DNA of 64,000 nt. Source: Pseudomonas sp. AN-1. GTDB taxonomy: Bacteria > Pseudomonadota > Gammaproteobacteria > Pseudomonadales > Pseudomonadaceae. The notes below the pieces were generated by a model, which saw only the letters and a program-made list of their open reading frames with translations, made no database searches and was not told the origin of the DNA. Where the stretch lies: NCBI RefSeq assembly GCF_034057115.1, contig NZ_CP139195.1:4464001-4528000 (forward strand). Reading direction: 5' to 3'. Shown one piece after another: positions 14,486 through 17,519 of this stretch (positions within the stretch are counted from its first letter, which is position 1; every line of letters starts with the position of its first letter). The translations under genes were made by a program, and so were the position numbers.

Positions 14486-15574
14486 ATGAGTGCCGTCACC
14501 CGCGCCGCCGTCGAGGCGGTTCTGCGTCAGTACCTTGATCCGCATCTCGATCAGGACCCGGTCAGCGCCGGCTGCCTGCGCGACGTCGCCATCGACGGCG
14601 GTCGCGTGCGCGTGCGTCTGGAGCTGGGCTACGCCGCTGGGCTGTTCAAGGCCGGCTGGGCCGAGCTGCTCGAGTCCGGCCTGGAGAACCTCGAGGGCGT
14701 GACCGAGGCATCGGTGCAGGTCGACTGCGTGATCCCGGCCCACCAGGTGCCGGCGCAGACCCAGGCGCTGGCCGGGGTGAAGAACGTCATCGCCGTGGCC
14801 TCCGGCAAGGGCGGCGTCGGCAAGTCGACCACCGCCGCCAACCTGGCGCTGGCGCTGGCCCGCGAGGGCGCGCGGGTCGGCATCCTCGATGCCGACATCT
14901 ACGGCCCCAGCCAGGGGCTGATGCTCGGCATCAAGGACGGCACTCGCCCGCAGGTCAAGGACGGCCAGTGGTTCGTGCCGCTCGAGGCCCACGGCGTGCA
15001 GGTGATGTCGATGGCCTTCCTCGCCGACGAGCGCACGCCGATGGTCTGGCGCGGGCCGATGGCCTCCGGCGCACTGCTGCAGCTGATCACCCAGAGCGCC
15101 TGGGACAACCTCGACTACCTGGTGGTGGACATGCCGCCGGGCACCGGCGACATCCAGCTGACCCTGGCGCAGAAGGTGCCGGTGGCCGGCGCGCTGATCG
15201 TCACCACCCCGCAGGACCTGGCCCTGCTGGATGCCAGGAAGGGCGTGGAGATGTTCACCAAGGTCAACATCCCGGTGCTCGGCGTGGTGGAGAACATGGC
15301 GGTGCACATCTGCTCGAACTGTGGGCATGCCGAGCACCTGTTCGGCGAGGGCGGCGGGGCCAAGCTGGCCGCGCAGTACGGCGTCGAGTTGCTGGCCTCC
15401 TTGCCGCTGGCCATGGCCATCCGCGAGCAGGCCGACGGCGGCAGGCCGACCGTGGTGGCCGAGCCGGACGGCCCGCTGGCGCTGCTTTACCAGCAGCTGG
15501 CGCGCAAGGTCGGCGCGCGGCTGGTGCGCCAGGCGGCGCCGGCGATGCCGAGCATCAGCATCAGCGAGGATTGA
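14486..15574 (+). CDS. apbC: Iron-sulfur cluster carrier ATPase ApbC (Mrp)
   Basis: A 362-aa P-loop ATPase that binds and transfers [4Fe-4S] clusters to apo-proteins. The N-terminal MIP18/DUF59-like segment is followed by the deviant Walker A VASGKGGVGKSTTAANLAL (near residue 105-120). The cluster-binding CxxC is at ICSNCGHAEHLFG, near residue 275. Full length for the family. The intergenic region with metG is only 134 bases, so divergent promoters are packed there. Downstream, an insertion sequence now separates the gene from its original terminator. Confidence 0.95.
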   Translation: MSAVTRAAVEAVLRQYLDPHLDQDPVSAGCLRDVAIDGGRVRVRLELGYAAGLFKAGWAELLESGLENLEGVTEASVQVDCVIPAHQVPAQTQALAGVKNVIAVASGKGGVGKSTTAANLALALAREGARVGILDADIYGPSQGLMLGIKDGTRPQVKDGQWFVPLEAHGVQVMSMAFLADERTPMVWRGPMASGALLQLITQSAWDNLDYLVVDMPPGTGDIQLTLAQKVPVAGALIVTTPQDLALLDARKGVEMFTKVNIPVLGVVENMAVHICSNCGHAEHLFGEGGGAKLAAQYGVELLASLPLAMAIREQADGGRPTVVAEPDGPLALLYQQLARKVGARLVRQAAPAMPSISISED

Positions 15575-15631
15575 TCCGCGAGCACGGGCGGCGGCGCTGC
15601 CGTCGCCCGTCTCGGGAAGAAATCGCAGGCA

Positions 15632-15639
15632 TAAAAAAA
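15632..15639. repeat. Left target-site duplication of ISL3 element (TAAAAAAA)
   Basis: The 8-bp TAAAAAAA directly abuts the left end of the insertion sequence. It is repeated exactly at 16945-16952, directly after the right end. Eight-base duplications in A/T runs are characteristic of ISL3-family insertion. The right copy is the A-tract that belongs to a bidirectional terminator. Confidence 0.9.
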
Positions 15640-16944
15640 GGTTCTTCGCGGGATCGTGGGGAAGAGCGGATTGACAGACAGGGAAGCAGGTAAATTGGCA
15701 GTCGCCAAACACGCCAACGCCTGCCCCCTGCTGTCACCGTGCATCCTATTGATCTTGCTGCTTTCTGGCCAGGCTACGACGTTGTAGCCTGCAGCCATTC
15801 CGTCGAAAAAAACCTCACGCTGACCCTCGAACCCCGAGCGGCCGACCTTCCACGCTGTGGTCGCTGTCAGCAGCCCAGCCCCCTGATCCATGACCGACGC
15901 ATTCGCCTCGTTCGCGACCGGGATCTGTTCGATCAGCGCGTCCAGTTGCGACTCCCCATACGCCGAGTGGACTGCCTGACGTGTGGGCGAGTTACCGAGC
16001 ACATTTCCTGGTTGGCCCCGGCCTCGCGGCTGACCCGCCGGCTGTGTTCCTGGGTCGAAACCCTGCTGCGGTTCATGCCCATCAGCCATGTCAGCCAGCT
16101 CACCGGGCTGCACTGGCACACCATCAAGACGCTGGACAAGCGGCGTCTCCAGGCCGCATTCGGCACCTTCGAGCCGGGCGATGTGCGCCGTCTGGTGATG
16201 GACGAGTTCGCCCTGCACAAAGGCCATCGTTACGCGACGGTGATCATGGATGCCGAGCGTACCCGCGTTCTGTGGGTTGGCCTGGGTAACAGCCGCAAGG
16301 CCATACGCCCGTTCTTCGAGCAACTCGGTGAGCGCTGCCAGCAGATCGAGGCTGTGGCGATGGACATGAATACGGCCTTCGACCTGGAAGTGAAACAGCA
16401 CTGCCCTCAGGCCGAGGTTGTGTACGACTTGTTCCATGTGGTCGCCCGCTACGGACGTGACGTGATCGACCGCATCCGGGTAGACCAGGCCAATGCCCTG
16501 CGCCATGACAAGCCCGCTCGCCAAGTGGTCAAGCAGAGCCGTTGGCTGCTGCTGCGCAACCGGGAGAACCTGAAGGAGGATCATGCCGTTCGACTGCAGG
16601 AGTTGTTGGCAGCCAACCAGCCACTGGCCACGGTCTATGTGCTCAAGGATGCGTTGAAGGAGGTCTGGTACGCACCCAGCGTGCGGGAGGGCTGGCGGCG
16701 CTGGCGAACCTGGCTGAGGCATGTCCGGGAGAGCGGCTTGGCGCCGCTACAACGCTTTGCCCGCAACCTCCAGCGCTATGCCCGGGGCATCCTCGCCAGT
16801 GCACGATTCCACATGCACACCAGCCTGCTGGAGGGGGTGAACAACCGGATCAAGGTGATCAAGCGCATGGCCTATGGCTTCAGGGACGCCGATTACTTCT
16901 TCCTGAAAATCAAGGCCGCCTTCCCCGGGAAAATGCGATGAACC
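15640..16944 (+). mobile_element. ISL3-family insertion sequence, 1305 bp, complete
   Basis: The left end GGTTCTTCGCGGGATCGTGG (15640 on) and the reverse complement of the right end, GGTTCATCGCATTTTCCCGG (from 16944 leftwards), form imperfect terminal inverted repeats sharing GGTTC-TCGC and a GGGGA block. The 8-bp direct repeats TAAAAAAA flank both ends. One transposase gene fills the element, and its stop codon lies within the right inverted repeat. An intact frame, intact ends and exact duplication indicate a recent insertion. Confidence 0.92.
15739..16941 (+). CDS. ISL3-family transposase
   Basis: A 400-aa DDE transposase. The N-terminal zinc-ribbon cysteines are LPRCGRCQQ and VDCLTCGRV. 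The catalytic acidic residues fit VMDEFALHKGHRYATVIMD (first Asp near residue 155), VAMDMNTAFDLEV (second) and LLEGVNNRIKVIKRMAYGFRD (Glu near residue 372). The frame is intact from terminal repeat to terminal repeat, so the element could be active. It lies co-directionally downstream of apbC. Confidence 0.95.
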   Translation: MHPIDLAAFWPGYDVVACSHSVEKNLTLTLEPRAADLPRCGRCQQPSPLIHDRRIRLVRDRDLFDQRVQLRLPIRRVDCLTCGRVTEHISWLAPASRLTRRLCSWVETLLRFMPISHVSQLTGLHWHTIKTLDKRRLQAAFGTFEPGDVRRLVMDEFALHKGHRYATVIMDAERTRVLWVGLGNSRKAIRPFFEQLGERCQQIEAVAMDMNTAFDLEVKQHCPQAEVVYDLFHVVARYGRDVIDRIRVDQANALRHDKPARQVVKQSRWLLLRNRENLKEDHAVRLQELLAANQPLATVYVLKDALKEVWYAPSVREGWRRWRTWLRHVRESGLAPLQRFARNLQRYARGILASARFHMHTSLLEGVNNRIKVIKRMAYGFRDADYFFLKIKAAFPGKMR

Positions 16945-16952
16945 TAAAAAAA
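16945..16952. repeat. Right target-site duplication of ISL3 element (TAAAAAAA)
   Basis: Exact copy of the 8-bp sequence at 15632-15639. It continues straight into the GC stem of the terminator at 16953-16968. This shows the element landed in the A-tract side of that terminator. Confidence 0.9.
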
Positions 16953-16974
16953 CCCCGCCTGGGCGGGGTCTTTT
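16946..16974. terminator. Bidirectional Rho-independent terminator (apbC side / cold-shock gene)
   Basis: The stem CCCCGCC (16953-16959) pairs with GGCGGGG (16962-16968). On the plus strand TCTTTT follows it. On the minus strand seven consecutive Ts follow (the A run at 16946-16952). It ends the leftward cold-shock transcript. Before the insertion it also lay about 65 bases past apbC; it is now about 1.4 kb from that gene. Confidence 0.9.
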
Positions 16975-16989
16975 GCGGGAAAGAACAGG

Positions 16990-17199
16990 TCAGATGACCT
17001 GGACTTCCTCGGCTTGCATGCCTTTCTGGCCGCGGGTCGCGACGAAAGAAACGGCCTGGCCTTCTTTCAGGCTCTTGAAGCCGTCGCTCTGAATGGCGCG
17101 GAAGTGTACGAAGAGGTCGTCACCGGATTGCGGGGTGATGAAGCCGAAGCCTTTCTCATCGTTGAACCACTTGACGGTACCGGTTTGGCGATTGGACAT
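16990..17199 (-). CDS. Cold-shock protein, CspA family
   Basis: A 69-aa single OB-fold RNA/ssDNA chaperone. The two RNA-binding motifs are intact: KGFGFIT (RNP1) and DLFVHF (RNP2). Start ATG at 17199 has a strong AAGGAGA ribosome site 8-9 bases upstream. The upstream in-frame extension to 17406 is not protein-like and probably represents the long 5' leader usual for csp genes. It ends in a terminator immediately to its left. Which csp paralogue it is (capA, capB, cspD) cannot be told from the window. Confidence 0.95.
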
Positions 17200-17519
17200 G
17201 TGAATGTCTCCTTGCATGAGTTTTAAAAGGTGGGTGACCTGGAAATTCCGGGCCGGGAACTGAATGCAAGGAGTTAGGAGTCGTAGCAATGACTGGATCG
17301 AGATCCGGGCATTTTGTAGCGATTCACGGTGACACATGCAGCAGCTGCAGCCACCATACGCGTTTTGCGCCAGGAAGCGAGCTTTATTTTCATTTTTTTG
17401 CCGCAAGTGACCGGCGGCAGGTCGAGACTCGTGGTCGGCAAGCCTTTGAACCGGGCTTTGCGCCCCGGTAAGATGCGCGCCCGACCTTTATCTCGCACAG
17501 CCTGAGCAGGACACCCGCC
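17200..17519. other. Divergent csp/dcd intergenic region (320 bases)
   Basis: This gap holds the probable 5' leader of the leftward cold-shock gene and the promoters of both it and dcd. The csp-proximal part includes a small palindrome, GGAAATTCCGGGCCGGG, near 17240. An A+T-rich stretch, TTTATTTTCATTTTTTTG, lies near 17382-17400. No open frame here looks like a gene. Confidence 0.5.

Follow-up and report, generated by a model that had tools for sequence, protein, structure and literature searches.

Between apbC and a convergent cold-shock protein gene (csp) of Pseudomonas sp. AN-1, an insertion sequence lies in the A/T tract of a transcription terminator, and the locus raises the question of whether elements of this type prefer such places and, if so, by which cue they find them. 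The window, i.e. the whole stretch of 64,000 nucleotides that was analysed, provides the coordinates used here. An earlier note on this DNA had proposed that the element landed in the run of As of the apbC/csp terminator with an 8-bp duplication, which was confirmed by the presence of TAAAAAAA on both sides of the element (table 1) and by an empty site. In a genome of the same species (G006) the joined flanks, with one TAAAAAAA at the joint, are matched at 155 of 157 positions, a genome search finds no match to the element in it, and two other congeners retain the A-tract and the hairpin at the orthologous site. From the single TAAAAAAA in the former, and the A-tract and hairpin in the latter, it follows that the insertion is real and derived. 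With regard to the coordinates initially given for the terminator (16946–16974), the right-hand duplication starts at 16945 and not at 16946.

Table 1. Features of the apbC–csp region of the window.
Feature	Position	Strand	Remarks
apbC/Mrp-type P-loop NTPase	14486..15574	+	PF10609, PF01883; now parted from its terminator by the element
Strong hairpin just 3' of apbC	15585..15611	+	no T-tract behind it
Left target-site duplication TAAAAAAA	15632..15639		8 bp; present once in G006, which lacks the element
ISL3-family insertion sequence	15640..16944	+	1305 bp; ends GGTTCTTCGC / GGTTCATCGC
ISL3 transposase	15739..16941	+	400 aa, GTG start; open reading frame and family profiles
Right target-site duplication TAAAAAAA	16945..16952		T-tract of the csp terminator when read on the minus strand
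csp terminator hairpin	16952..16969		stem 16952–16958 / 16963–16969, loop 16959–16962; RNA folding
Weak T-run TCTTTT	16969..16974	+	serves the apbC direction, now the transposase direction
Cold-shock protein gene (csp)	16990..17199	-	PF00313; convergent neighbour, hairpin and T-tract intact

The element is an ordinary member of the ISL3 family. Its open reading frame exceeds the cut-offs of PF01610, PF13542, PF14690 and NF033550, as a DDE transposase of the ISL3 type does, with its zinc ribbon and HTH; the match to the Pfam profile DDE_Tnp_ISL3 has an E of 6.8e-71, and that to the NCBIfam equivalog transpos_ISL3 scores 335.5 bits, the cut-off being 180. The terminal inverted repeats are imperfect (left end, GGTTCTTCGC; right end, read reversed, GGTTCATCGC) and begin with GG, as those of the ISL3 family do. 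The 8-bp target duplication, a trait of the family, is exact in eight of the 11 copies found in this genome, two of the others being explained by swapped duplications and one being 7 bp long.

With respect to the terminator, the minus-strand RNA of 16940–16990 folds at −21.8 kcal/mol (z −3.2) and the plus-strand RNA of 16930–16985 at −18.0 kcal/mol (z −1.6, equalled by 15 of 200 shuffles). Its previous description as bidirectional holds in the csp direction, where the terminator is strong, the hairpin being followed by UUUUUUUA (on the minus strand, 16952–16969 runs directly into TTTTTTTA), and needs to be attenuated in the apbC direction, where it is weaker with a UCUUUU tail. A simple terminator scan did not return the csp hairpin, its sole hit being another hairpin at 16986–17001, probably because the A- and T-tracts are paired into the stem. 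The duplicated 8-mer being the T-tract itself, the hairpin still has a complete T-tract towards csp, where the right-hand copy of TAAAAAAA lies directly beside it, in agreement with the earlier statement that csp keeps its T-run, and csp termination is probably as it was before the insertion. On the apbC side the terminator is lost, the hairpin being now beyond the element, and read-through from apbC into the transposase gene is plausible. At the hairpin just 3' of the gene (15568–15650 folds at −39.7 kcal/mol, z −3.6), one arm of which is absent in one congener (L221), a part of the apbC transcripts might stop or be trimmed ahead of the element. The transposase stop codon lies inside the right inverted repeat, which leaves no room for a terminator of the element's own after the transposase; the transposase transcript may well end at the displaced hairpin. 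A consensus promoter scan of 15500–17300 yielded no sigma-70 match.

The 4.61-Mb genome contains 11 full copies that are identical to the one in the window or show a single difference from it, which, together with the empty site, suggests recent movement. Mapping of these copies had been set as the test of a preference for terminator A-tracts, and it gave an outcome of the predicted kind: all 11 lie in A/T tracts and six abut a terminator hairpin (the window copy, L002, L003, L004, L006, which is the one with the 7-bp duplication, and one of the two swapped sites of L010 and L011), the remaining five being without. For the eight copies with clean duplications, a hairpin score of at least 15 was found in four versus 2.3 expected from identical 8-mers in 800 kb (P 0.15), so that the terminator excess from this genome alone is weak and not convincing.

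Other observations concern the copies themselves. L011 (552375–553679, minus strand) and L010 (984239–985543, plus strand), on contig 1 of this genome (G000), carry exchanged duplications (AAAAATAG / CTTTTTTG), which, with the opposite orientation of the two copies, is the mark of a chromosomal inversion of approximately 431 kb by recombination between them. Element position 74 (window position 15713) is a G in the window copy, L002 and L003, all at 4.03–4.48 Mb, and an A in the other eight of the 11, which hints at local spread of a variant. A remnant of 290 bp (L012, contig 1, 3205165–3205454), which has 94% identity to the element's left end, points to a related copy of greater age.

A larger set of insertions was obtained from 398 genomes of the family to which the window belongs, of which the 18 with copies 77–83% identical were searched again, with readable flanks in 17. 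By leaving out one locus that reads N and three repeats of sites already counted, 76 unique insertions were collected, including those of this genome: 58 with clean 8-bp duplications, and 18 without (15 in relatives, 3 here), among them some recombined or 7-bp cases that are also at terminators. A hairpin, called when the score on the T-side of the duplication was 15 or more, was found at 39 of the 50 clean insertions of relatives, from 13 genomes, versus 9% of random positions. Of the 43 sites scored among the 58 clean ones of all genomes, 39 have the foot of the stem exactly at the edge of the duplication. The association is uneven by host: 28/28 in one genus (G033, G126, G130 and G093), 11/22 in the other relatives and 4/8 here, and host or element lineage may matter for the first of these patterns. 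In one relative (G194), a tandem pair of copies (L085) has a single AAAAAAAA between them.

Further insertions came from named contigs, where 34 of 80 loci have an exact duplication; four were already counted, and the 30 used include 16 that abut a hairpin. By the GC content of the fetched surroundings, rather than of whole hosts, these are 0/4 under 45%, 5/7 at 45–55% and 11/19 above. As a stand-in for hosts of 45–55% GC, 120 kb of E. coli gave a hairpin at 60 of 950 tracts with a T-run of at least 5 preceded by G/C and at 29 of 252 with a T-run of at least 6, while for gene-end tracts the values were 31/93 and, with a T-run of at least 6 and full G/C before it, 10/11; the comparison with the 5/7 figure is suggestive only. 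Among ten further copies (eight from plasmid-collection records and two from E. coli records), six have clean duplications and four of these six abut a hairpin; a chromosomal E. coli copy (L330) is inside a gene, with no hairpin.

Alignment of the targets revealed a pattern symmetric about the duplication, with G/C at positions −4 to −2, eight A/T positions, and G/C at positions 9 to 11. The sites without a hairpin, 16 of the 58 clean family sites and 14 of the 30 named-contig sites, carry the same G/C edges; in the 30 named-contig sites, position −2 is G/C in 97% and position −3 in 87%. The probable explanation is that the element is a recently active ISL3 member whose preference for an A/T tract with G/C edges makes terminators its frequent targets. 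The transposase would prefer an A/T tract of approximately 8 bp with G/C on both sides, roughly GGC-N-[A/T]8-N-GCC, with the midpoint of the duplication as its axis of symmetry. Where a genome is GC-rich, an intergenic sequence that fits this pattern well would often be the T-tract of an intrinsic terminator, at the base of its hairpin, and for this reason the element would behave as if it were seeking terminators. The duplicated T-tract would leave the gene served by the terminator (csp in this case) still terminated and make the insertion nearly neutral, survival at gene ends adding to the bias, while the gene on the other side (here apbC) would lose its terminator and the transposase transcript would stop at the displaced hairpin.

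It could be argued that any element with a taste for A/T tracts would, by chance, show an association with terminators in a GC-rich genome, and the data of this genome, taken by themselves, would agree with it. However, when identical 8-mers of the same genomes were used as controls (six genomes, 200–800 kb sampled in each, 46 clean insertions, those with fewer than 3 controls being excluded), hairpins were observed at 29/37 insertions versus 14.3 expected, an approximately twofold excess that was reached in 0 of 200000 simulations. With controls restricted to intergenic tracts, the values were 28/34 versus 13.9, and with the further requirement of a G or C before the tract 19/23 versus 11.6 (P 0.0003). 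Outside the strong genus (this genome, G182 and G194) the excess is modest, 10/16 versus 6.0 (P 0.02), falling to 8/12 versus 6.7 (P 0.30) when G or C is required before the tract. As a whole, chance association, already disfavoured by the pooled excess, is hardly tenable. That there is no preference beyond A/T richness, insertions elsewhere having been lost and those at gene ends having survived, is also very unlikely, although it deserves more consideration. By gene calls that are crude, a gene ends just before 25 of 41 sites, and 22 of the 41 are flanked by convergent genes; a relative, ISAeme19, has been found in mgrB of a polymyxin-resistant isolate (PMC12554700), and an ISL3 element of P. 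aeruginosa with A/T-rich duplications is described inside genes (PMC7643977). Since the counts are of surviving insertions, survivor bias and targeting are inseparable in them. However, when only gene-end T-tracts with a T-run of at least 4 are taken into account (outside this genome, whose gene calls are poor, the window locus itself not being called convergent), a hairpin is found at 20 of 21 insertions and at 455 of 1219 controls. Moreover, hit and unhit terminators differ in the properties of the tract: comparison of 30 targeted and 1178 untargeted terminator-like sites gave 7.0 versus 5.6 Ts, and the distal G/C in 28/30 versus 778/1178. A rule for orientation was also considered and set aside, the T-tract being on the transposase strand in 36 sites versus 22 (binomial p 0.087).

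The terminator itself may instead be recognized, either as a hairpin or cruciform or through a paused RNA polymerase with its RNA–DNA hybrid at the T-tract. Such recognition, which is judged unlikely but less so than the two previous explanations, would agree with the exact register of the stem foot on the edge of the duplication, with the 28/28 value of the one genus (11/11 versus 5.0 expected there, even with intergenic, G/C-preceded identical 8-mers as controls) and with the 5/7 value at 45–55% GC, where matched E. coli tracts rarely have a hairpin; the absence of hairpins in all four sites in surroundings under 45% GC, and the hairpin-less sites with the same edges, speak against it. The outcome of matching depends on how it is done. 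With T-run and edges matched among intergenic sites, the odds ratio for a hairpin drops from approximately 15 to approximately 5 (17/20 versus 82/152 with a T-run of at least 5 and full G/C edges, odds ratio 4.8, p 0.006), and score-matched sites still yield 35/46 versus 27.6 expected. The tightest match (gene end, T-run of at least 6, edges) leads to 13/14 versus 55/73 (odds ratio 4.3, p 0.13), a comparison of few sites and low power, in which the hairpin energy is nonetheless lower at insertions (median −13.7 versus −11.7 kcal/mol, p 0.016), a difference that is not significant with full edges on both sides (p 0.14). In a cross-validated sequence model the gain in likelihood from the hairpin is borderline (chi2 3.65), and hit terminators are not told apart from the others by their hairpin score, which is no higher at the targeted terminator-like sites (22.7 versus 24.0, p 0.15). 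For this lack of effect of the score, the hairpin was set aside as the main cue, yet the energy result and the difference between genera point the other way. Thus, the cue looks to be mainly the double-stranded sequence, of which terminators would be the commonest natural match, and the hairpin may contribute beside it, above all in one genus. What sequence comparison shows is the pattern of the target, the way in which it is in register with the foot of the stem, and a hairpin frequency above that of controls with the identical 8-mer.

Among known systems, the closest are the ISAeme19-type ISL3 elements, which share with this element the transposase domains, a length of approximately 1304 bp, the 8-bp duplication and the terminal GGTTCTTCGC; an E. 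coli plasmid relative annotated as ISAeme19 family is 73.8% identical to it in DNA. The two E. coli relatives (74–76% identity) differ in that here 11 chromosomal places are occupied, with a bias to terminators. CLJ-ISL3 of P. aeruginosa, an ISPst2 isoform, is likewise an ISL3 element with A/T-rich 8-bp duplications (TTCTTTTT, AATTTTTC and others) and with rearrangements revealed, as here, by mismatched duplications, but it is 2985 bp long, with extra genes, other inverted repeats and insertions largely in genes, and the word 'terminator' is absent from that part of the article which is available (PMC7643977). In Enterococcus faecium a segment ending in an ISL3-family element was found, with an 8-bp duplication, at the rho-independent terminator of an rRNA operon; according to the accessible sections, however, this is a single case, approximately halfway through the terminator, the structure of which is disrupted in the authors' opinion, and no target preference is claimed (PMC11702846). 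IS1272 and TnSha1, of the IS1182 family, also insert in hairpins, several of which were shown to be transcription terminators, but they do so within the stem, part of which is deleted, and leave no duplication (PMC4923244); at the locus under study the insertion has left the stem as it was and duplicated the T-tract over 8 bp. With regard to the ISL3 family as a whole, the target preference is stated to be not known, AT-rich regions being suggested (PMC5395568), and a large survey, as far as its available text goes, reports ISL3 elements as over-represented between co-directional genes, without listing them among the families over-represented between convergent ones (PMC9208149). In view of the sites found here between convergent genes, called crudely as mentioned, the family-wide picture may not apply to the present subgroup. 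A terminator preference of ISL3 elements appeared in no title or abstract of the literature searched, in which most subscription papers are missing.

The suggestion of the earlier note that terminator A-tracts are a preferred target is, therefore, supported as a description by the comparison of genomes, unevenly across hosts, being weak in this genome alone and modest outside one genus, with a G/C-edged A/T tract, rather than the terminator, as the probable main cue. A broader proposal, which is doubtful at present, is that a widespread subgroup of ISL3 elements uses terminators as safe harbours by way of the G/C-edged T-tract at the stem foot, with help in some hosts from the hairpin or from a paused RNA polymerase, and that the 8-bp duplication would rebuild the invaded terminator, so insulating the gene of the host and, for one of the two orientations, also the transposase. 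The interest of the finding resides in the target rule and in the restored terminator rather than in the element itself. Landing at gene ends and restoration of the T-tract suggest how an insertion sequence may multiply with little harm; the rule would allow the sites of further copies to be predicted, and by it the gene on the opposite flank may be left without a terminator and be read into the transposase.
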